A stretch of DNA of 51,655 bases from Chthoniobacteraceae bacterium (GTDB taxonomy: Bacteria > Verrucomicrobiota > Verrucomicrobiia > Chthoniobacterales > Chthoniobacteraceae), in the NCBI GenBank assembly GCA_947471505.1, contig CANIWM010000040.1, forward strand, positions 1-51,655. The letters are read 5' to 3'. Both the position numbers and the translations under genes were made by a program. This document shows, in pieces, positions 90 to 28,432 of this stretch (the first letter of the stretch is position 1; every line of letters starts with the position of its first letter). The notes under the pieces were generated by a model, which was not told where the DNA came from, did not search any database, and saw only the letters and a list, made by a program, of their open reading frames with translations.

Positions 90-284
90 CTCTCTGTTGT
101 TGCACGACTTCCGCCATTTTCACATCCGGCTAACTGCTTTATTTAGGGTAATAGGCGAGGGCATCCTCCGCACCCATAAAGACTGCCTTCTACAGCTTCG
201 TGCGTCCCGCATCGCTGACCTACGCCAGCGGTGATCCTGCGTCCCTTTCTTGCTCGGTGATTGTGCCTTCCATCCGTCTTCGGC

Positions 285-557
285 GGATGTCCGTTTGCCT
301 AAAGAGGACGTCCGCCAACGACGAGGGGATGTCCGCGAGCCACGAGAGGACGTCCGCCAGCCACGAGAGGACGTCCGCCAGCCACGGGGGGACGTCCGCC
401 AGCCACGGGGGGACGTCCGCCAGCGACGGGGGGACGTCCGCCAGCGACGAGGGGACGTCCGCCAGTCACGAGAGGACGTCCGGTGGCCCCAAGAGGATGT
501 CCGCCAGCGACGGGAGGATGTCCGCTTGCCTCACGAGGATGTCCGCTTGCCTCAAGC
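285..557 (+). repeat. Tandem array, 13 units of 21 bp with GGACGTCC core
   Basis: Thirteen consecutive 21-bp units start at 285, 306, 327 and so on to 537, without a single spacing error. Each begins GGACGTCCG or GGATGTCCG, so most units carry the perfect 8-bp palindrome GGACGTCC. The rest of the unit is typically CCAGCCACGAGA with G/A and C/G variation, and the outer units are most diverged. Because 21 is a multiple of 3, several frames stay open through the array, which makes spurious ORFs. A small palindrome (CATCCG..CGGATG) abuts the left end. The array ends 112 bp before the FN3-type gene at 670. The intervening bases 558-669 are A-rich. The rest of the gene-free interval 90-669 shows no other feature. 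Confidence 0.9.
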
Positions 558-669
558 GGAGTGAGAAATCCCGCGCAAACCACACGGAGCGAGCGATTTA
601 CACACAATTGTCCGAATTTGATAGAAACCATAAAACAAACCGAAAAACACACAAACAACACATAAAACC

Positions 670-1371
670 ATGGCAAAGCTAAAATGGGGGATGCCGCTGA
701 AATGGAATCAGAAAGGCCTCCTCTGGAATGGCGATGTCCCAATTAAACCACACAAAATGAACCAAGTAGTCCTCAAACTCGACGAACTCACCGAAACTGA
801 ACTCATCGCAGAAGCCCGCCGCATCGCCCAAGGCCTCCTCGATAACGCCGTCGCCTTCACCGGCGCCGAGCCCCCGGCCGCCGACATCACCGCGGCTGCC
901 GACGCGCTTGAAAGCAGCATCTCCCAGCGGGATCAACTCAAGCAGCAAGCCGAAGCCGGCACGCTGAACGCCAAAAATCTCAACGCCGCACTACGCGCCA
1001 CGCTCACCGAAGTGGCCACTTGCGACGTCGTCAAAGCGCTCGCCCCCGAAGACTGCACGCTCGTCTTCGACCTCAAAGACGCACCCACCGCCACCACCAG
1101 CATGCCGAAAGTCATCACCGTCACCGTCACCTTTGGCGACGGGACGACCGAGCTCGACATCATGTGGGCCCCCGTGCCCAAAGCCCGCGCGTTCGAGATC
1201 CAATACAAAACCGCCAACGGAGCCTGGACGCCCGCCAAAACCACCACCCGCTCCAGCACCACCGTCGAAGGCCTGCCCGCCGGAGTGCTCGTGCAAATCC
1301 GCATCCGCGCCATCGGCCCCAACGAAATCACCGGCGAATGGAGCGACCCGATCGAACACCTCGTTCCTTAA
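670..1371 (+). CDS. Helical-bundle plus fibronectin type III protein, function unknown
   Basis: This 233-residue protein has no signal peptide. Residues about 35-115 are helical (motif LTETELIAEARRIAQGL, then an Ala-rich stretch). Residues about 140-233 form a fibronectin type III-like domain, with TTELDIMWAPVPKARAFEIQY, a VEGLPAGVLVQIRIRAIG strand pair and the terminal GEWSDPIEHL typical of FN3 ends. This helix-then-FN3 layout is, to my knowledge, a recurrent family of unknown role in Verrucomicrobia and Bacteroidetes. The ATG has no Shine-Dalgarno and is preceded by an A-rich leader. The gene stands alone behind the 21-bp array and is followed by a strong hairpin terminator about 190 bp downstream. 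A second gene at 22697-23689 has the same overall arrangement. The function is not inferred. Confidence 0.85.
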   Translation: MAKLKWGMPLKWNQKGLLWNGDVPIKPHKMNQVVLKLDELTETELIAEARRIAQGLLDNAVAFTGAEPPAADITAAADALESSISQRDQLKQQAEAGTLNAKNLNAALRATLTEVATCDVVKALAPEDCTLVFDLKDAPTATTSMPKVITVTVTFGDGTTELDIMWAPVPKARAFEIQYKTANGAWTPAKTTTRSSTTVEGLPAGVLVQIRIRAIGPNEITGEWSDPIEHLVP

Positions 1372-1390
1372 ACCCGAACGCCGCTTTTTC

Positions 1391-1516
1391 GTCCGCAGAT
1401 TACGCAGATTGCGCAGATGTTGTGGGCCGTGCGCCATTCGCGGACGGGACAAAACCGTGCGCAGACACCTGGGCTCGCAGTTCCATAAATCTGCGGAATC
1501 TGCGGAATCTGCGGAC
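1391..1516. repeat. Inverted repeat with arms of triplicated CGCAGATTN
   Basis: The left arm (1391-1418) and right arm (1489-1516) are 28 bp each and complementary apart from two mismatches. Each arm is made of three tandem 9-mers of the form CGCAGATTN. The arms enclose about 70 bp. It lies between the FN3-type gene and its putative terminator and is probably a small non-autonomous repeat. The CGCAGATT-type repeat is, as I recall, common between genes in many bacterial genomes. No coding function is seen. Confidence 0.75.
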
Positions 1517-1563
1517 AACAATCGCGGCGGTCGGGATAAACCAAACCCACCATCAAAGAAACC

Positions 1564-1593
1564 AAAGCCCCACCCGCGAAAGGGTGGGGCTTT
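1564..1593 (+). terminator. Rho-independent terminator
   Basis: A perfect 12-bp stem (AAAGCCCCACCC / GGGTGGGGCTTT) closes a GCGAA-type loop and is followed by TTTTT. It is the first terminator after the FN3-type gene ending at 1371. Confidence 0.8.
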
Positions 1594-1638
1594 TTCGTGG
1601 GTGTGATTAAAAGTGGAATAAGCGATGGAGTCGCAATG

Positions 1639-20443: not shown

Positions 20444-21240
20444 CTCCGGCGTCTCCGGCACAGCGCACCGAAGCCCGCCAGCAAAAGCCCGGCGCTCCCC
20501 GGCTCCGGCACCGCTTGGTGGATCACGCCGACTGCATCCAGATCAAAACCACCCGTCTCGAAGAACGTCGGCCACGGGTCGTTGATGATGCGGTTTTGCG
20601 AATCTCGCGTCGCATACGCCGGGTCGATGCTGCCGACAACATCCACGATGCGGACATGCGTGACGGCATTGACGTTCAGCCCCGCCGCCCCGCTCAGTTC
20701 GCCGAGGTCAAACGGCGTGCCGAAACCCGAGCGATACTTGCCCGCGAGGTTGTGGAGATTCGTCGGGTCGAGCAGCGAGAAGCTCCCCACTTGCGTCGCC
20801 GTCTGCGTTTGCGACAGCGCGCCGAAGCGGAAAAACGTCGAGCCGTCCGAGCTGACTTCGACGAACCCCAGCTCCAGAAAGCTGTCGCTCAACCCATTCT
20901 CAAACACCGCAAAGTCCGCGCCCGCGCCGTTCGTGATCGGCTTCGAGAAGGTGAGCGTGATCGAGCCGCCGTCGCCCAAACTGAGCACGGGCAAATTGTC
21001 CGCCACCGCATCGGATTGCCCGAGCACATCGAACGTCGTGCCCCAAGTCACATCGCCGCCATCCGGGTCCGTGATGTCCACAGGGCCGCGATCCAACTGC
21101 GACACGCCCGTCGCCCAGCCCTCGAAAATCCCCGAGTTATACGGGATCGCAGTCGAGCCGACTTGCCCCGCTGCGGGCGCGTAAGGCCCAGCAAACGCAG
21201 ACGCCGAACACGCGACGGACGCCAGCAGGAAAACCCTCAC
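20440..21240 (-). CDS. PEP-CTERM surface protein of the B12-locus type
   Basis: The 266-residue protein has a signal peptide (MRVFLLASVACSASAFAG) and a soluble beta-rich body. It ends with the PEP-CTERM signal VPEPGSAGLLLAGFGALC plus RRRRR, which directs exosortase cleavage and surface anchoring. The body contains SLGDGGSITLTFSKPITNGA, DFAVFENGL, FVEVSSDGSTFFRFGAL, THVRIVDVVGSIDP and GGFDLDAVGVIH. I recall very similar strings in surface proteins encoded next to BtuG in Bacteroidetes B12-uptake loci. This is a recalled resemblance, not a search result. GTG at 21240 overlaps the previous gene's stop (GTGA), and its own stop overlaps the next gene (ATGA). It lies downstream of a cobalamin riboswitch. 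Confidence 0.88.
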   Translation of the reverse strand: MRVFLLASVACSASAFAGPYAPAAGQVGSTAIPYNSGIFEGWATGVSQLDRGPVDITDPDGGDVTWGTTFDVLGQSDAVADNLPVLSLGDGGSITLTFSKPITNGAGADFAVFENGLSDSFLELGFVEVSSDGSTFFRFGALSQTQTATQVGSFSLLDPTNLHNLAGKYRSGFGTPFDLGELSGAAGLNVNAVTHVRIVDVVGSIDPAYATRDSQNRIINDPWPTFFETGGFDLDAVGVIHQAVPEPGSAGLLLAGFGALCRRRRR

Positions 21241-22175
21241 CCTTTCCGCCTCCGTGCGCCGAGCATCACCACCGCGAGCCCCAGCAATCCAGCCGTCGTC
21301 GGCTCCGGCACGACGCGGAAGATCGCGCTGCGATCTAATAGACTATAGTTCGTGACCGCCACGAACAGCCCCTCCGAATCCGACGCCATATTTCCAATCG
21401 TATTCGCGCTCGTCGCAATCGTGCTGCCCGTCCCCGGCGTGATGAAGTCCTGCACCGTGATTTGCGAAAAGTCCGAGCGGGCGAAAAAGCCGGGCTGTCC
21501 TTCCAGCGACTCGAAATACGCATTTCCGCTGTTCGCCTCATAAAGGTGCCCCGCATCCAGCGAGAGCCCGCCTGCATTCAGCTCCGCCGCCGTGTAGCGA
21601 TAGAGCCCCTTCGGCGCACTCGCGCGGCCATAAAAGAGCGATGTGCCGCCAAAGACGAGCGGCCCGGAGAAGTCCGATGAAGTCAGCACCGTTGTCGTCA
21701 CCCCCGTGGTCAAATCGAGCTTCATGATTTGATTTCCCGCGTATCCCGGATTCGCGGAGACCCAGCCGAAGCCGCCAGAAAAATCAATATCGTACGCCTT
21801 TTCGACGGTTCCCAAAGTCGAGACGGCACTCGTCCCAAGATCGAAGGTCCGCAGCGTATTTGCGGACGACTCTCCAAAGTAAAGTTTTCCGCCAAACTCC
21901 TTCACAAAGGAGCCGTAAGCGGACGTCCCGTAATCGAAAAGCACCGTCGGCGTCGCATAGCCGTCGAGCGCGCTGCGTCGCAAGAGCTGCGTGGACGCCG
22001 CACCGCGCTGGAGCAAGTAGTAGAGCGAGGTGCCCTCCACCTCGACCCCGGTGATGGATTGGCCCAAGTCAGTGCGGAATAGCTCCGTAGTCGGCAAGCC
22101 CGAGGTGAGCGATTGCGCGAAAGTTGGGACGATGGTGAATGCGAGCGCGAAGCCCGCGACGATGGTTTTTTTCAT
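21237..22175 (-). CDS. PEP-CTERM propeller-like surface protein under a cobalamin riboswitch
   Basis: The 312-residue protein has a signal peptide (MKKTIVAGFALAFTIVPTFA) and a body of repeated beta segments of about 40-50 residues (for example LYYLLQRGAASTQLLRRSAL and NQIMKLDLTTGVTTTVLTSS) that suggest a beta-propeller. It ends VPEPTTAGLLGLAVVMLGAR followed by RKG, a PEP-CTERM anchor. BtuG, a surface-exposed propeller of Bacteroides, captures cobalamin with very high affinity. The combination here of a propeller with a B12 riboswitch suggests an analogous, exosortase-anchored role, but that is inference. It is the first gene of a three-gene operon, with about 155 bp between the riboswitch and its ATG. 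Confidence 0.85.
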   Translation of the reverse strand: MKKTIVAGFALAFTIVPTFAQSLTSGLPTTELFRTDLGQSITGVEVEGTSLYYLLQRGAASTQLLRRSALDGYATPTVLFDYGTSAYGSFVKEFGGKLYFGESSANTLRTFDLGTSAVSTLGTVEKAYDIDFSGGFGWVSANPGYAGNQIMKLDLTTGVTTTVLTSSDFSGPLVFGGTSLFYGRASAPKGLYRYTAAELNAGGLSLDAGHLYEANSGNAYFESLEGQPGFFARSDFSQITVQDFITPGTGSTIATSANTIGNMASDSEGLFVAVTNYSLLDRSAIFRVVPEPTTAGLLGLAVVMLGARRRKG

Positions 22176-22521: not shown

Positions 22522-22644
22522 GATCTATATTTATTTCGCAAAGAACTGCCCGGATAAAAGCGGGCGACCCTCCACGTCACAAGGAGTTTTTCCCAAAGCT
22601 CCCGCCGCCGACGCCCCACCACCTCCCCCGCCGCCCGAAAACAC

Positions 22645-22682
22645 AAAAAGCCGGGAGCCCAGCACTGGACTCCCGGCTTTTT
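22645..22682 (-). terminator. Terminator after the second FN3-type gene
   Basis: A perfect stem AAAAAGCCGGGAG / CTCCCGGCTTTTT with a short interior is flanked by A and T runs and can act on either strand. It sits 15 bp past the stop of the minus-strand gene ending at 22697. Confidence 0.85.
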
Positions 22683-22696
22683 GGAAAAGCGGCGCG

Positions 22697-23689
22697 CTAC
22701 CCCGTCACCGCGATCCGATTCCCCGGCGAGCCCTCATCCGTCCCATCGTAACCCACCACCCACACCTCGTAGCCCACACCCGCATCCAGCGGACCGAGTT
22801 GCGTATAGTTCACCGTCGTCGAGACCGACACCCCGCACAGCTCCACCGGCCCCGCCGGAGTCGCCCCCACCGCCACCTTCTGCCGATAGCACCGCAGCGA
22901 ATTTGCATTCGTCGGCATCGTCGCGATCGTCAGCGTCTTCGCCGCCGCATCCAGCGTCGCATTCGCCGGAGCATCCGGCACCGTCCCGCTGCTCGCCTCG
23001 CCCGGCATCCGCTTGGGTTGCAGCCCGATGCGCTTGAGCTCCAGCGTCCGCTCGCCGTCGTCGCTCGCCGAAATGTAGAAACCACGAATCCGCGCGATTG
23101 CATCCTCCGCCGCCTCCGTCGCAGCCGCCACCGCGGCCACCGCCTGCTGCCGCGTTCCACCCGTCGCCAGCGATTGATGCGCATGCAACGTCGCGTAATG
23201 CCCCGCGATAAAATCCAGCAACGGCTGCGGATACACCCACGCTGGATTATCCACCGGGGCCGCCGCCGCGATCGGTGCCAGCCGGCCCAGCTCCTCCTTC
23301 CGCGCATCGTCAAACTCCCCGATCACCCCGCTCGTGAACCCATAGCGCTCGTGCAGTTGCAGCCGCTTCGCATCCGAAATATGCGGCGGATCCCCCGCCA
23401 TCGCCACCGGGACAAACTCCGGCAGCAACCCATCGATAAAACTCTTCCCCGCCCGATGCCCCTTTTCCAAAGTCTCCAGGCACGCACGGCAAATCGCGCT
23501 CGCCCCCGCCCGGTCGCCCTCCGCCAGACTCGCCGCCCCGAGCGCCGCAGCCAGTGCCGATTTTCGCGAGTGCATCAGATTAAAAAGCGTCGTGTTCAGT
23601 AAGAACGGATCGCCCGCCGAGCGGGTGGCCTGAACGCTGGCGACCAGTTCCAGTTTTTCGAGTGCTTCGAGTGCGCGTTGATTGCTCAT
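22697..23689 (-). CDS. Helical plus FN3-like protein, second copy of the array-linked type
   Basis: The 330-residue protein has no signal peptide. Residues about 1-210 are helical and Ala-rich with conserved-looking blocks (FNLMHSRKSALAAALGAAS, SAICRACLETLEKGH). The last 110 residues form a fibronectin type III-like domain (LDAAAKTLTIATMPTNANSL, then QLGPLDAGVGYEVWVVGYDG and a terminal GSPGNRIAVTG). I do not recognise the helical part. It resembles the protein at 670-1371 only in layout. The start ATG 23689 has no Shine-Dalgarno. As at 670, the upstream region carries a 21-bp-phased array (23840-24165) about 150 bp away, and a hairpin terminator follows the stop. Confidence 0.8.
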   Translation of the reverse strand: MSNQRALEALEKLELVASVQATRSAGDPFLLNTTLFNLMHSRKSALAAALGAASLAEGDRAGASAICRACLETLEKGHRAGKSFIDGLLPEFVPVAMAGDPPHISDAKRLQLHERYGFTSGVIGEFDDARKEELGRLAPIAAAAPVDNPAWVYPQPLLDFIAGHYATLHAHQSLATGGTRQQAVAAVAAATEAAEDAIARIRGFYISASDDGERTLELKRIGLQPKRMPGEASSGTVPDAPANATLDAAAKTLTIATMPTNANSLRCYRQKVAVGATPAGPVELCGVSVSTTVNYTQLGPLDAGVGYEVWVVGYDGTDEGSPGNRIAVTG

Positions 23690-23839
23690 AATTGTAGATG
23701 CCTAGTGGTTGTCTGTGGAGTTTTGTAGATGTGAGAAAAGCACCCGGCTACCGACCCAAAAGCGAGCAAGCTGCCGGATACGTGCGAAATTAAATCCCAC
23801 AACCCTGCCCGGCGCAAATAATAATTCCGTTACAATCGT

Positions 23840-24165
23840 CAGACCTCTGCCGCATCCCCCGAGACGTCCAGAATTTGACGTCACACCCATGCCAGCCGCC
23901 GCGCCACGTCCCAAATCGGCCATCAGACTCCTGACAGCCGCCGTGGCACGTCCCCAATCCGCCGTCAGACCTCTGTCCGCCGCTTGGACGACGTTCCCAA
24001 TCTCCCGTCAGACCTCTGCCGCCCGATTCTGCACGTCCCCTACTATCTGTCACACGTCTGACGCCCGATTTTGCACGTCCCAGCGGTCCCGGCAGACGTC
24101 TGCCAGCCAAAAAATGGACGTCCCGCAACCTCCGGCAGACGTCTGCCCGAACCTGTTGGACGTCA
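23840..24165 (-). repeat. 21-bp-phased array of alternating ACGT-centred palindromes
   Basis: Sixteen palindrome centres lie at 23844.5, 23865.5, 23886.5 and so on to 24161.5, each 21 bp apart except two 22-bp steps. Two motifs alternate: CAGACGTCTG (often CAGACCTCTG) and GACGTCC or CACGTCC, so the true repeat is about 42 bp and there are eight. The base composition between centres is varied, while the centres are conserved, suggesting selection on the sites rather than recent duplication. The array lies upstream of the FN3-type gene at 22697-23689. The rest of the gene-free stretch 23690-24396 holds only the inverted-repeat element at 24214-24373. Confidence 0.85.
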
Positions 24166-24213
24166 AAAATGAGCAAAAATAGACAGTTTTACGAGCGCAT
24201 GAGCAGATTGGAG

Positions 24214-24373
24214 GCGAAGCCCAAGGAGCGGCGACATTCCTGTCGCTGTCCTTCAAAGCGCGAAGCGCCCAACTATCGAGCACCGTGCAATCTCCGAGAG
24301 CCACGCGAAATCGATTGGACGCTTCGCGTTGTGGGGGGACAGCGACAGGAATGTCGCCGCTCCTTGGCTTCGC
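24214..24373. repeat. 160-bp inverted-repeat element with GGAG-headed REP ends
   Basis: The left arm (24214-24251) and right arm (24337-24373) are complementary over 38 bp apart from one missing base. Each arm includes GGAGCGGCGACATTCCTGTC, itself a hairpin (GCGACA TTCC TGTCGC). The inner sequence continues to pair (GCGCGAAGCGC with a GCTTCGCG strand), so the whole element can fold as a long hairpin. A GGAG head plus palindrome in inverted pairs fits a REP/BIME or a small MITE. It abuts the 3' end of the inactive restriction-modification gene. Confidence 0.75.
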
Positions 24374-24396
24374 ACTACAACATCACGCTGCCGCCC

Positions 24397-27300
24397 TTAC
24401 ACGCTTGCCTGGTAATGCGCGTCGAGCTGGGGGTGGAGGGCGAGGATGGCGGCGATTCGGCGGATGTGGTGGGTGAATTCCTGTGCTTCGTCGCCCGTGA
24501 GCGGGCGGCCGAGCAGGGCGCTTTCCCGGTAGCTGAGCCACTTTTTCAGCACTTGGTAGCCGCCCAGCGTATAGGCCCACACGGCGGCGGGCACGTCTTT
24601 CCAGCGGGTGGTTTCGTTGAGGTGGATGTCCACGAAGCCCTCGCCTCGCGTGCCGCTTTTGACCATGCCGGGGCCGGGCATGGTCACGCCGCCCTGCCCG
24701 GCGTAGCCCCAGCGGGCGACGATGGCGAGGTCGGGCGTTTTGCCTTTGGCGGTGAGTTCGCCGAGGCCGCGTAAATCGGCGCGGACTTTGAGGGACGTCA
24801 CGCCTTCTACGGGCGTCTCGGGGTCGAGCAGCGCGGCGAGCTGGCGGCCGAGGTCGGCACCGGCTTTCAAAATTTTTCCCGTCTTGGGCAGGGGCACGCG
24901 GGGCCAATCCTGCCGCAGGGCTCCGGCGTTTTCCTCGCGGTAAAGCGGCGCGTGCAGCACGGCGACGATGTGGAAGAAGAGATCCTCCGCCCCGCACTTC
25001 AAGCCCGCGAGATACTCCCGCGCAAAGTCGGTGAGATTCGGCTGCGGGCCGGACGGGTTTGAGTTGCCGCCGAGGTCGAAATCCATCTGCGTGGGCTCGC
25101 GGAGGATCGTGCTGTCGTCGTCCGGCTGGAGGTAGAGCGGGAAGTAGTTTGCACCGCGCTCGATCAAGTGGTGCGAGGGAAAACACGACATCACCATTGG
25201 TTCGGTAAATCCCTTTCGATTGTGGCGAACGACGGCGAGTAGCGGATTGCCGGGCGCGACATGATGGCGGAAGTCCTCCCGACGCTCTTCGACGAGCTTG
25301 GTTTCCCGGTGCCAGAAGAGCCACCGCACGTCGAAAGGCCGATAATGCAAACGGACGAACTCGCCGGATTCGAGTCCGCGCAGCAAAAGGTGCCTGCGCG
25401 TTTGCACAGCGTCGAAGCGTCCGGTCTTTCGCATCAGTGCCGGGAACCGCTTCGCGATCTCCCGTTCCGAAACATCCGGGTCAAATTACGCAGTCATGCG
25501 GTCAACAAGCGGCTTCCGGTCGATGCTCACGAGAACTTCGTCTCGATTCGTCAGGAATCCAAACGATGAGTATCGCAGAATGTCGGCGATGGTCGGCCAC
25601 TGCTTGTAATCGACCCGCACAGCGACTGGCACGAACGGCAAACCGAGCGGGAGGGCAGGCTTGAGCTTCTTGGGCTTCACCCGCTTGTCCAGCGACGCCT
25701 CCAGCTCCTCCCGCTTCTCCTTCCCCCACCAATGCCGGAAGCCGAGTTCGGCATTCGGCGTGTAGGTGTCGGCGATGGGCTTGCGCTTGGCGTTGTCGGG
25801 CCGTCTTTCCAGCAGGGCGATGGCGGTGCCGACTTGGATGCCTTCGCGGTTTTTCTCCGTGGAGAAGACGCTGGGGTCGGGCTGGCCGTCGGGGGTCTTT
25901 TTGCCGGTCTTGTATTTGTCGCCGTTCAGGCAGTCGATGGTGATGGAGTCGAAGACTTCCATGAAGCGCTCGCGCATCCCGGTGTGGGAGAGGCCGTCGA
26001 GCCACGAGTAGTTGGAGATGTAGCAGATGATGCCCTTGGCATCGGCGCGCGGCGGGCCGGGCTTGAGTTCATCCGTCTGCGGGACGCCTTCGGCGATGCG
26101 GCGCTCGGCCATGCGGAAGAAGCGGATGTAGAGATCGTTGAGCCCCTGTCCTTGGGGCTTGGGCGCTTCCTTGGTATCGCGGTAGGCCTCGCTGAGGTTG
26201 CGCTCTCCTCCACGGCCATGCCTGCGTAGCCGTCGTACGGAGGGTTGCCGAGAATGACGAGGATTTGCTCCTGCTGCTTTACATGGTCGGCGGCATCGCG
26301 CTCGGCGGCGAACTCGGAGAAGGGCAAGTCTTTGGGGGATTTGATGGGCACCCAACCGGTGAGGGCGTTGGTGAGGAAGACGCCGGCACGCTCGTCTTTT
26401 TCATGATCGAGCGGCGAGCCCCAGCGGGTGAGCATGAGGTCGATCTGGAGATGGGAGACGACGTAGGGCGCGGGCAGCAGCTCGAAGCCGTAGAGGCGGT
26501 GTTTGGCGACTTCTTTGATTTTGAGCCCGGCCTGGCTCTCGCCGTAGCCCTCGACGAGGCGGCGGCGGATAAGTTTGAGCGTCTCGACGAGGTAAGCGCC
26601 GGTGCCGCAGCAGGGATCGAGGACGATGACGCTGGGGTCAGCGAGGCCATCGGGGAGGCCGAAGTTTTCGCGCAGCGCCTTATCCACGCTGCCGACCATG
26701 TAGCGGACGATCTCGGGCGGAGTGTACCAGACGCCGAAGTCTTTGCGCAGCTCGGGGTCGAACTCGGCGAGGAAGGGCTCGTAGAAGTATTGCACGGCGT
26801 CGCCCATGTCGTAGCGGGCGAAGAATGCCTGCCGGTCCACGCGGGCGAGGCAGTCTTCCGTCCAGTCGAGCACTTCCTCCAAGTCGAGGGCGCGGACCTT
26901 TTTCGGATCGCCCGCGAGCTGGACGAAGAGCGTGCGAAGGATGGGCAGTCCGAGATATTGGGCGGAGAGCCGCCATTGGAAGCGGTCGGTGGTTTTGCTG
27001 TGCTCCTCGTGCCAGAGCACCCACGCGGAGAAGATGCCGTAGAAGAGCGTCTGGATAAGCGTGGACTGGAAGAAGTGGATGCCCTTTTCCCCCTCGAAGC
27101 GGACGCCGAGTGCGTTGCTGAGCGCGTTCTTCACCGGCTCCAGCGTGCCCATTGGGGCAATCTCGATGCGGGCGCGGGCTTCCCTCGCGTAGCTGGCGAG
27201 AAATGCGGCGAGGTCCTGCGGCGTAGCGATGCGCGCGGTGCTGAGCAGGGCGCGGCGGAGAAACTGCCAGATGCGCTCGTGCTCGGGGAGACTCGGATTG

Positions 27301-27773
27301 TTTCGGAGAGCGTGACTTTTGCCCCAAAACTCCTGCGCACTCGAAGCGATGCTGTAGCGCTCTCCGGCCACGGCTTTTCCCCCGCGCCACGACCAGAGGG
27401 CGAAGGAGCGGTAGTTGGTGAGGAGAATCTGGCCGTAGTGCTCCAGGTAGTTCCGCACTTGCGGGCTGCTCTCAAACGAGGAGAGGTCGGCATCGAGCGC
27501 CTTTACCTCGATGACGCCGCGCTCGGGCTTGAGCTGGAACAGGGCTGGGGAGTCGGCTCCGTGCTTTTTGAGTTCCTTGGCAGAGAAGAGGCCTCCATCC
27601 GGGATGCCCGCGCCGTTGTTGGACGGATGGATGACGGCGGTGATCTTCGGTTTGAGGGAGTCGCCGACGGCGTTGAGGAGCTTTGAGAGCGCCGGGTAGC
27701 CGCTGGTCTCCGGCACGCTGACGCCGGAGATGAGGTAAAGCTCGTGCAGGTATTCGACGACTGGATGCGACAT
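24397..27773 (-). pseudogene. Single-chain restriction-modification enzyme (N6-adenine methylase), broken
   Basis: Three fragments join into one protein of about 1125 residues, starting MSHPVVEYLHELYLISGVSV at 27773. An N-terminal PD-(D/E)xK nuclease is suggested by GIPDGGLF (residues 57-64) and GVIEVKALD (86-94). The methylase has DPCCGTGAYLVETL (about 386) and LGNPPYDGYAG (about 509). The C-terminal third is probably target recognition. Two lesions are visible. Near 26203-26211 one G of a GAG repeat is missing, so VEE..ERNLSEAYRDT is split between frames. A TAA at 25486-25488 replaces what is usually an aromatic codon in MTA-x-FDPDVSEREIAKRF. Adding the one base makes the length a multiple of three. 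No partner defence genes adjoin it. The family is Type IIG/ISP-like. Confidence 0.85.
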
Positions 27774-28432
27774 GGGCGGGAGGACACCGCGTTTTCCAAC
27801 CGGTGACAAGTTCTTAGCAAATGCGCCTCACCACTGATACGAAAACCGTGCGCGGCTCGGCGGGATGGAGTGGACGCATTTTCATCCGGAAAATTGTTTG
27901 ACCTCCCGGTGCTGTCGGGCGATTTCAAGACCATCGCCCGGTAGCTCCATCATCCAGTTTGCGAGTCTCTGTTTCGGGGCGGTGACAGTGCCTCGCGGTA
28001 TCCAAACACAACGACCATGAGTGACAACGACAGGCACCATTTCCAAAGCCGGACGGGCTGCGCAATCGGCACCGCTCGTTCATCCATCATGGGAGGCGCA
28101 ACTTTTTTCGATGAATCCGATTTGCAAAGCCGTGAGTAGCATGGTCAAGGCGGTTTGCATGGCATAGAGTCCGCCTGAAGCTCCCCTGCGCTGGTACGGG
28201 GGGAGGCTATAGGGCTCCTATTTCGGCGAGGGAGCGGCCAACCACGGACGCCGAACAAAGGGGCGGTGCAGAGGAGACTCTGCACCGCCTCTACGCTTTC
28301 CGCCATTCACGCCGTCCGGGGATGAACGGACTCCCCACTTGTAAATGAACCGTGCGCGGAACATGCGGGGCTCGGCGGGGTGTCGCCGAAGCCGTTGCGG
28401 ACGGGGGCCGTTCCATGCCACACTGCGCCGCG
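27774..28432. other. Gene-poor interval
   Basis: About 660 bp without a convincing gene. It holds a GTAG-headed REP palindrome at 28260-28294 (listed separately) and a 40-codon frame from ATG 28017 to TAG 28139 (MSDNDRHHFQSRTGCAIGTA at its start), which is too short and atypical to call. Promoters for the minus-strand restriction-modification gene and the plus-strand gene at 28433 must lie here but I cannot place them. Confidence 0.5.
28260..28294 (-). repeat. GTAG-headed REP palindrome
   Basis: On the minus strand the sequence begins GTAGAGGCGGTGCAGAGTCT and then returns through CTCTGCACCGCC, giving a 12-bp perfect stem (GGCGGTGCAGAG) with a short loop. The GTAG head followed by a palindrome matches the REP format of the other elements in this window. 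Confidence 0.65.

Follow-up and report, generated by a model that had tools for sequence, protein, structure and literature searches.

Two cassettes of one design in the window

The window, that is, the whole stretch of 51,655 nucleotides that was analysed, contains two loci of one design, one at positions 22635–24190 on the minus strand and the other at 150–1598 on the plus strand. The first of these, the focal cassette, comprises an array, a leader, a gene and a probable terminator, and is delimited by a 1556-bp alignment to a second genome, G032 (G032:C72:2700–4255). The focal array (23836–24169, minus strand) lies 5′ of the gene and is made up of 16 alternating palindromes with a superperiod of 42 bp. 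It is joined to the start codon by a leader of about 146 bp (23690–23835, minus strand), where we infer the core promoter probably to lie. The gene itself (22697–23689, minus strand) is an open reading frame of 330 aa, assigned to family A. Its stop codon is followed, still inside the cassette, by an inverted repeat and then a T-run (22644–22683, minus strand); this hairpin is conserved in the G032 alignment and, judged from its sequence, is probably the terminator.

The initial annotation had described 16 palindrome centres at 21-bp steps with two 22-bp steps, and this description held, with 15 centres having at most two mismatches and the remaining one, at 23886.5, having four. Centres of the CAGACGTCTG type with 0–2 mismatches lie at 23844.5, 23928.5, 23970.5, 24013.5, 24055.5, 24097.5 and 24140.5, the degenerate centre at 23886.5 being of the same type, and centres of the GGACGTCC type, likewise with 0–2 mismatches, lie at 23865.5, 23907.5, 23949.5, 23992.5, 24034.5, 24076.5, 24119.5 and 24161.5. 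Steps of 22 bp occur only from 23970.5 to 23992.5 and from 24097.5 to 24119.5. The proposal that the spacing is no accident also stood up to shuffling: the best lag identity of the focal array (region 23690–24396) was 0.651, above the maximum of 0.476 (mean 0.405) reached in 1000 dinucleotide shuffles of the same region, so the spacing is not due to chance. Within the window's own genome assembly, G000, the perfect focal site is confined to the focal array, and two-mismatch sites outside it number 28, against 23 for a reversed control pattern, which gives no sign of a genome-wide regulon.

Several other features adjoin the focal cassette. Just upstream of the array, at 24213–24373, is a dispersed palindromic element with a 31-nt perfect inverted repeat, of which at least eight further copies are present in G000 and at least eight in G032. 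Type ISP restriction-modification domains (Type_ISP_C and an N6-methylase) are encoded in separate frames at 24397–27809 on the minus strand. The 3′ end of the cassette adjoins a cobalamin riboswitch (Rfam RF00174; 22326–22533, minus strand), which lies upstream of a PEP-CTERM gene at 21237–22175.

The second cassette (150–1598, plus strand) is defined by the extent that it has in common with G032:C110, in four pieces (150–245, 559–639, 657–1373 and 1537–1598). It carries an array of 13 units of 21 bp with a GGACGTCC core (277–549, plus strand), followed by a family B gene (670–1371, plus strand) for a protein of 233 aa with a helical part and an FN3 domain. A terminator-like hairpin, read from the sequence, lies at 1567–1590 on the plus strand, in a piece common with G032. 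The gene and the pieces up- and downstream of it are kept in G032:C110, while the array has undergone turnover. The lag identity of this array, near position 285, was 0.937, against a maximum of 0.484 in 1000 dinucleotide shuffles.

Recurrence of the array-plus-gene pairing

The combination of an array with a small solitary gene recurs many times among a group of bacteria from soil and water. An upstream region was counted as carrying an array when the best lag, among values near multiples of 21, gave an identity of at least 0.50 over 126 bp. By this measure 66 of 80 full-length family A or B genes, the window's two included, have an upstream array of the 21/42-bp type, compared with downstream arrays at 3 of 77 genes of the same kind; among the 72 genes readable on both sides, 59 have an upstream and 2 a downstream array. 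The background was 40 positives among 705 tiles of 900 bp, some of them overlapping, and by reading we assigned 31 of these 40 to cassette arrays and 9 to other sources, including the orphan array of G028:C30 described below.

These genes were gathered at increasing taxonomic distance. A protein search of the window's own genome found three family A and six family B places, the window's included, the last of the six (L009) being an FN3 stretch in an 879-codon frame. Among 40 genomes of the taxonomic family, family B occurs in 14 (66 places) and family A in 6 (19 places). Setting aside 21 partial genes and 4 with less than 300 bp upstream left 60 of these 85 places for the array test, and 53 were positive (family A, 10/11; family B, 43/49); partial genes with enough upstream DNA had an array in 6 of 15 cases. 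Across the order, 38 of 213 genomes gave matches, some solely through FN3 stretches of large proteins. Outside the family 24 genomes matched, and one locus taken from each of 18 of them yielded 12 full genes, 9 with an array. Of 387 genomes sampled from the phylum, 6 gave a match; two had been included before, and the remaining four provided 10 loci, of which 8 were full with enough upstream DNA and 4 of these 8 had an array.

A scan of named genomes returned 57 loci, from Spartobacteria, Chthoniobacteraceae, Verrucomicrobiaceae, Prosthecobacter, Opitutaceae, Methylacidimicrobium and subdivision 3, together with a few in MAGs labelled Acidobacteria, Proteobacteria, Klebsiella and Akkermansia, labels that we do not trust. 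After omission of fragments and genomes already used, 39 loci were tested and 37 had enough upstream DNA; an array was found at 29 of the 37, or at 27 of 34 once three loci that match ones already counted (two with an array) are removed. The initial annotation had predicted that further loci would pair such an array with an FN3-type gene, and these counts bear it out. It put the system forward as a candidate for a new one; our search of the open-access literature found no published description of such arrays.

Among the array-negative genes, several peak at lag 20–22 slightly under the threshold, and for one (L026) the array lies farther off, about 1.7 kb upstream. In G028 and G029 the end of a contig is close to many of the cassette genes, as would be expected if arrays interrupted short-read assembly, and the copy numbers are therefore probably too low. 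In G441, a genome of the same class but outside the order, an array with a 14-bp period (L172 2373–2635, G441:C49) lies about 6.4 kb from a 21-bp array. Many leaders end in an A/C-rich stretch, for example CAAACAACAAACC, before the ATG, and a Shine-Dalgarno sequence is not obvious there.

Period and unit sequence

In the 66 positives the best lag was 21 in 29 arrays, 42 in 26 and another value (22, 41, 44 or 62–64) in 11, a spectrum limited beforehand by a criterion that admits only lags near multiples of 21. All 10 family A positives have a best lag of 42. A 21-bp unit could in principle be translated as a 7-residue repeat, and some loci do have an open frame running through the array into the gene; however, steps of 20, 22, 41 and 43 bp break the frame in many arrays, and arrays of 22 and 44 bp exist. 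We rejected coding heptads on account of these frame-breaking steps and regard them as scarcely credible.

The unit sequences of most loci are unrelated and differ almost completely. For protein pairs below 40% identity, unit similarity was no higher than in column-permuted controls; for the six pairs at 70–80% identity, the mean unit similarity was 0.49 against a null value of 0.37. Half-site similarity followed protein relatedness weakly (Mantel r 0.08, p 0.03). The initial annotation had proposed that the period, the upstream position and an ACGT core recur together. The period and the position do recur, but the core is not supported as a common element, most other arrays, within this genome as well, having unrelated dyads. 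A single protein acting on both arrays of the window through a common ACGT core is therefore not suggested, since most other arrays lack it, and this candidate was dropped.

Dyad symmetry and conservation of the sites

Column permutation gave significant dyad symmetry for 34 of 56 arrays (53 chosen by score and three weaker ones added by hand) and none at that level for the other 22; the combined p of 3e-38 is overstated, because a few of the 56 are orthologous or paralogous pairs. The innermost pair of the dyad is asymmetric and the next pair symmetric. Within arrays, conservation was higher in the dyad columns than elsewhere for 20 of the 27 arrays compared (Wilcoxon p 0.003), the 27 being family B arrays with a dyad of at least four pairs, near-identical arrays omitted. 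Between the focal array and its G032 relative, the dyad columns are identical at 130 of 144 positions and the spacers at 153 of 190 (Fisher p 0.014), the corresponding figures for the leader and gene being 129/146 and 843/993. The claim that centres are conserved over diverged spacers is thereby borne out for this pair. In a pair of arrays on contigs C5 and C9 of G000, by comparison, the presumed dyad columns (81/96) and the rest (170/202) do not differ. Together with two orphan arrays of G028 described below, the 20 arrays and the focal comparison indicate selection on the array sites, as the initial annotation had argued.

Arrays seeded independently at each gene as neutral minisatellites would account for the fast turnover of units and for arrays at ordinary genes and within a coding frame. 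Such an origin would leave the constant 21-bp period, the 5′ position, the dyad symmetry and, in most tests, the slower change of the dyad without a cause, and we consider it very unlikely.

Inverted repeats could also act after transcription, the array serving as a repeat RNA in the manner of type III toxin-antitoxin loci. The order of array and gene is the same as in those loci, the units are locus-specific, and leader hairpins reach z below −2 in 11 of 42 cases. Double Watson-Crick changes in the arms, however, numbered 74 against 75.5 expected by shuffling in the 28 arrays whose consensus dyad is clear, although covariation could be missed in young arrays. Single changes in the same 28 arrays gave 176 G-T and 154 A-C cells, no clear excess, and both strands of 54 arrays folded equally (mean z −4.5 and −4.7). 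Neither window array had an Rfam match, and the proteins scanned had no toxin-family match in Pfam or PADLOC. The covariation, G-T and folding tests favour sites in DNA and weaken the RNA reading; with no covariation of the arms and equal folding of the strands, an array of RNA hairpins is distinctly unlikely.

Cassette proteins

The focal 330-aa protein had no Pfam match at E 0.01. The AlphaFold2 model of family A (pLDDT 78.1) consists of long helices and a C-terminal β-sandwich that is FN3-like, the Foldseek matches to domains of that type being weak (best E 1.2e-3). The model of family B (pLDDT 88.8) likewise combines helices with FN3, and its residues 141–233 matched FN3 domains with a VIA-align Z of about 13–14, in a comparison covering the FN3 part of the model only, and with a Foldseek E of 2e-6. 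The PF00041 score of family B was 21.8 bits, below the 25-bit cut-off. The models thus predict an FN3 fold at the C-terminus of family B, and a weak likeness to one in family A. PHROGs returned FN3-type tail-protein matches for the family B protein, and NCBIfam and PADLOC nothing above cut-off; apart from FN3-type matches, the cassette proteins scanned against Pfam, PHROGs, NCBIfam and PADLOC matched no known family. No recognised DNA-binding fold appeared in the predicted structures of either family, in a comparison mainly of the sandwich that barely covered the helical part.

The pI is below 7 in 54 of 67 cassette proteins, with medians of 6.1 and 5.1. A repeated aromatic-Asp/Asn motif near the N-terminus occurs in 18 of 54 family B genes, compared with 4.1 expected by shuffling. 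The dN/dS of the focal gene against its G032 copy is 0.27, and across seven pairs of cassette genes it ranges from 0.17 to 0.46; by these ratios the cassette genes are under purifying selection.

Relocation of the cassette

The focal unit behaves as a mobile one-gene cassette, recurring in essentially unrelated surroundings. The focal cassette is 85% identical to G032:C72:2700–4255 over 1556 bp without a gap, and when the window was compared by blastn with 12 kb of G032:C72, only a 52-bp stretch matched besides the cassette. That stretch (window 28331–28382) is 86.5% identical to G032:C72:2609–2660, which lies just outside the cassette in G032. Conversely, at a threshold of E 1e-10, 7 kb of the G032 locus has a single match in the window's genome, at 22635–24190. 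The family A paralogues on C100 and C77 of G000 behave in the same way, being 85% identical from about the start of the array to the stop codon with unrelated flanks. Fragments of family A genes at G000:C8:20493–20804 (L056) and G032:C28:43192–43425 (L048) are probably decayed cassettes common to both genomes.

A clean empty site was not obtained from the comparisons of C77 and C15 of G000 with G032. On C77, a 5.6-kb cassette-bearing segment replaces 0.1 kb of G032:C20, which is not a precise excision, and on C15 the DNA common with G032:C35 ends about 0.2 kb before the cassette, and only 825 unmatched bp of G032:C35 are left beyond it.

The array may alternatively be conceived as the mobility part of the cassette, where a recombinase encoded elsewhere would bind an end or target made up of many sites, with the gene as cargo. 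The focal pair (C40 and G032:C72) and the C100/C77 pair, each sharing about array start to gene end, agree with such a role, as do the orphan arrays and an array inside a presumed alaS-like gene. However, the array lies at one end only, and inspection of the aligned boundaries by eye showed neither terminal inverted repeats nor target duplications. Among the neighbours in 21 regions no recurring gene cluster reads as a recombinase, and a recombinase acting in trans should need one common site, whereas the units differ from locus to locus. We consider a role in mobility unlikely.

Neighbours, orphan arrays and the wider class

No constant partner gene accompanies the cassettes. Besides cassette genes, the commonest neighbour clusters in the 21 regions are sulfatases, in seven regions and at varying distance; every remaining cluster occurs in four or fewer, so that no non-cassette family exceeds 7 of 21.

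Arrays built of the unit of one G028 cassette (C26) also occur as orphans in the same genome, one of three units upstream of a sulfatase-like gene (G028:C30:56122–56180, L162) and one of seven units between convergent genes (G028:C80:16645–16745, L215). No family A or B gene was found in the DNA examined near either. Relative to the C26 cassette, the dyad is identical at 32 of 33 positions and the spacers at 17 of 30 in the C30 orphan, and at 68 of 77 and 38 of 70, respectively, in the C80 orphan, where the dyad window ranks first among 21 rotations. Retention of the dyad over diverged spacers is what would be expected of a factor acting in trans, and these sequence comparisons offer the clearest sign of a sequence-specific one.

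A census of an unselected 1.2 Mb of G000 identified 19 regions with lag 21, 42 or 63, and one dinucleotide shuffle of the same tiles gave none over threshold. At least two of the 19 are coding repeats by reading. Of 17 arrays inspected, nine precede small genes that we read as helical or FN3-like (one weakly), and seven of these nine genes were scanned, with no Pfam match; the other eight arrays lie beside or inside other genes. One pair, the C5 and C9 arrays (G000:C5:42042–42379, L308; G000:C9:19516–19822, L326), is 82% identical over 350 bp, yet different genes follow, namely a large ORF and a gene for a 237-aa protein starting MKKPYFPDALKDQ. Another array, a 42-bp dyad array (G000:C1:55454–55673; L281 15453–15672), is embedded in frame in an open frame of 1244 codons, which we take to be an alanyl-tRNA synthetase gene (alaS-like) and which presumably also holds a RAYT-type transposase in frame.

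With 8 of 17 census arrays at other genes, the gene is a much better guide to the presence of an array than the array is to the kind of gene. The census provides the chief evidence against a tight module of two parts, array and FN3 gene, which the initial annotation had put forward as its leading candidate for a new system: the pairing does recur, but arrays are not restricted to FN3 genes.

A predicted operator array

From these observations we infer, tentatively and at a confidence a little short of an even balance, that the arrays are cassette-specific, helically phased operators bound by a dimeric protein. In the predicted arrangement, the focal feature would control a mobile one-gene cassette from its 5′ side, and a sequence-specific protein with two-fold symmetry would recognise the palindrome of each 21-bp unit in the DNA. 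Since 21 bp correspond to two helical turns, bound dimers would align on one face of the DNA and could assemble cooperatively, and the assembled dimers would set the expression of the gene starting about 130 bp downstream. The site sequence would be private to each cassette and drift fast, while the period, symmetry and 5′ position are kept.

The binder may be the cassette's own helical-FN3 protein, in which case the cassette would regulate itself. Cassettes relocate with array, leader, gene and terminator alone and have no constant partner, which makes their own protein the simplest source of specificity; on this argument from parsimony, specificity possibly resides there. The acidic character of the proteins and the lack of a known DNA-binding fold in their models speak against it. 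A fuller version, in which mobile cassettes across the phylum encode small helical-FN3 proteins that each bind their own array, giving a genome dozens of mutually orthogonal and rapidly diversifying pairs with the orphan arrays as further targets, seems to us unlikely.

Further observations weigh against the operator reading. Close paralogues, at 70–80% identity, often carry quite different units, and half-sites track protein relatedness only loosely; the C80 orphan has convergent genes on its two sides, a position in which an operator would hardly be expected; 22 of 56 arrays are without significant symmetry, and the C5/C9 dyads have changed as fast as the rest; and 8 of the 17 inspected census arrays are beside or inside other genes.

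On any of these readings, a regular and constrained DNA architecture stands beside a large set of uncharacterised proteins across Verrucomicrobiota and some MAGs with other labels. Should each cassette's protein prove to read the array beside it, the cassettes would represent many unrelated pairs of palindrome and binder, of a new protein kind, with the evolution of specificity visible between close paralogues. If the array instead drives the movement or expression of FN3-type genes, it would define a new sort of gene cassette.

Comparison with known systems

Partition systems of the F-plasmid type contain ParA and ParB genes and use one site sequence per plasmid. The cassettes differ in that their FN3-type genes are solitary and almost every locus has a unit of its own, and ParA or ParB genes were found neither as a recurring neighbour in the 21 regions, by reading, nor among ten window proteins scanned. 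The array could nevertheless be imagined as a centromere or a set of iteron-like sites, nucleating a protein complex for segregation or replication of the cassette. The geometry is of the same kind as that of parS (sopC) in the type Ia system of the F plasmid, with its twelve 43-bp repeats and ten 16-bp inverted repeats (PMC6238139); both consist of tandem repeats with inverted repeats, bound there by ParB and here by prediction. The 43 bp of the F repeat are also near four helical turns. Against this stand the single-gene loci on genome contigs, the lack of a recurring ParA-, ParB- or Rep-like neighbour in the 21 regions, and a tblastn search in which one family B protein matched nothing in the plasmid collection; nor did it match anything in the phage collection. 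We judge such a function to be quite remote.

The iterons of plasmid origins are direct repeats of about 20–22 bp, mostly non-palindromic, that lie beside the Rep gene and are bound by the cognate protein encoded next door. The arrays resemble them in repeat length, about 20–22 bp, and in the adjacent gene, and no Rep-like match was found among the adjacent genes scanned.

In type III toxin-antitoxin loci the repeat RNA precedes the toxin gene, the repeats act as RNA, and the toxins are endoribonucleases of the ToxN/TenpN/CptN kind. No product of that kind was matched in Pfam or PADLOC, and the models consist of helices and FN3. ToxIN (PMC8860590) combines a locus-specific repeat array with a solitary gene. 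The cassettes differ from it in having no RNA signature and in the predicted helical-FN3 build of their proteins.

CRISPR spacers are unique, whereas here the whole 21/42-bp unit repeats, spacers included. Unlike REP/RAYT elements, the perfect focal site is found in one array of G000 rather than dispersed over the genome. In homotypic operator clusters a palindromic site is present more than once ahead of a promoter, usually as a few sites served by one regulator; the cassettes, by contrast, have about 7–19 strictly phased units and a site that differs at nearly each locus.
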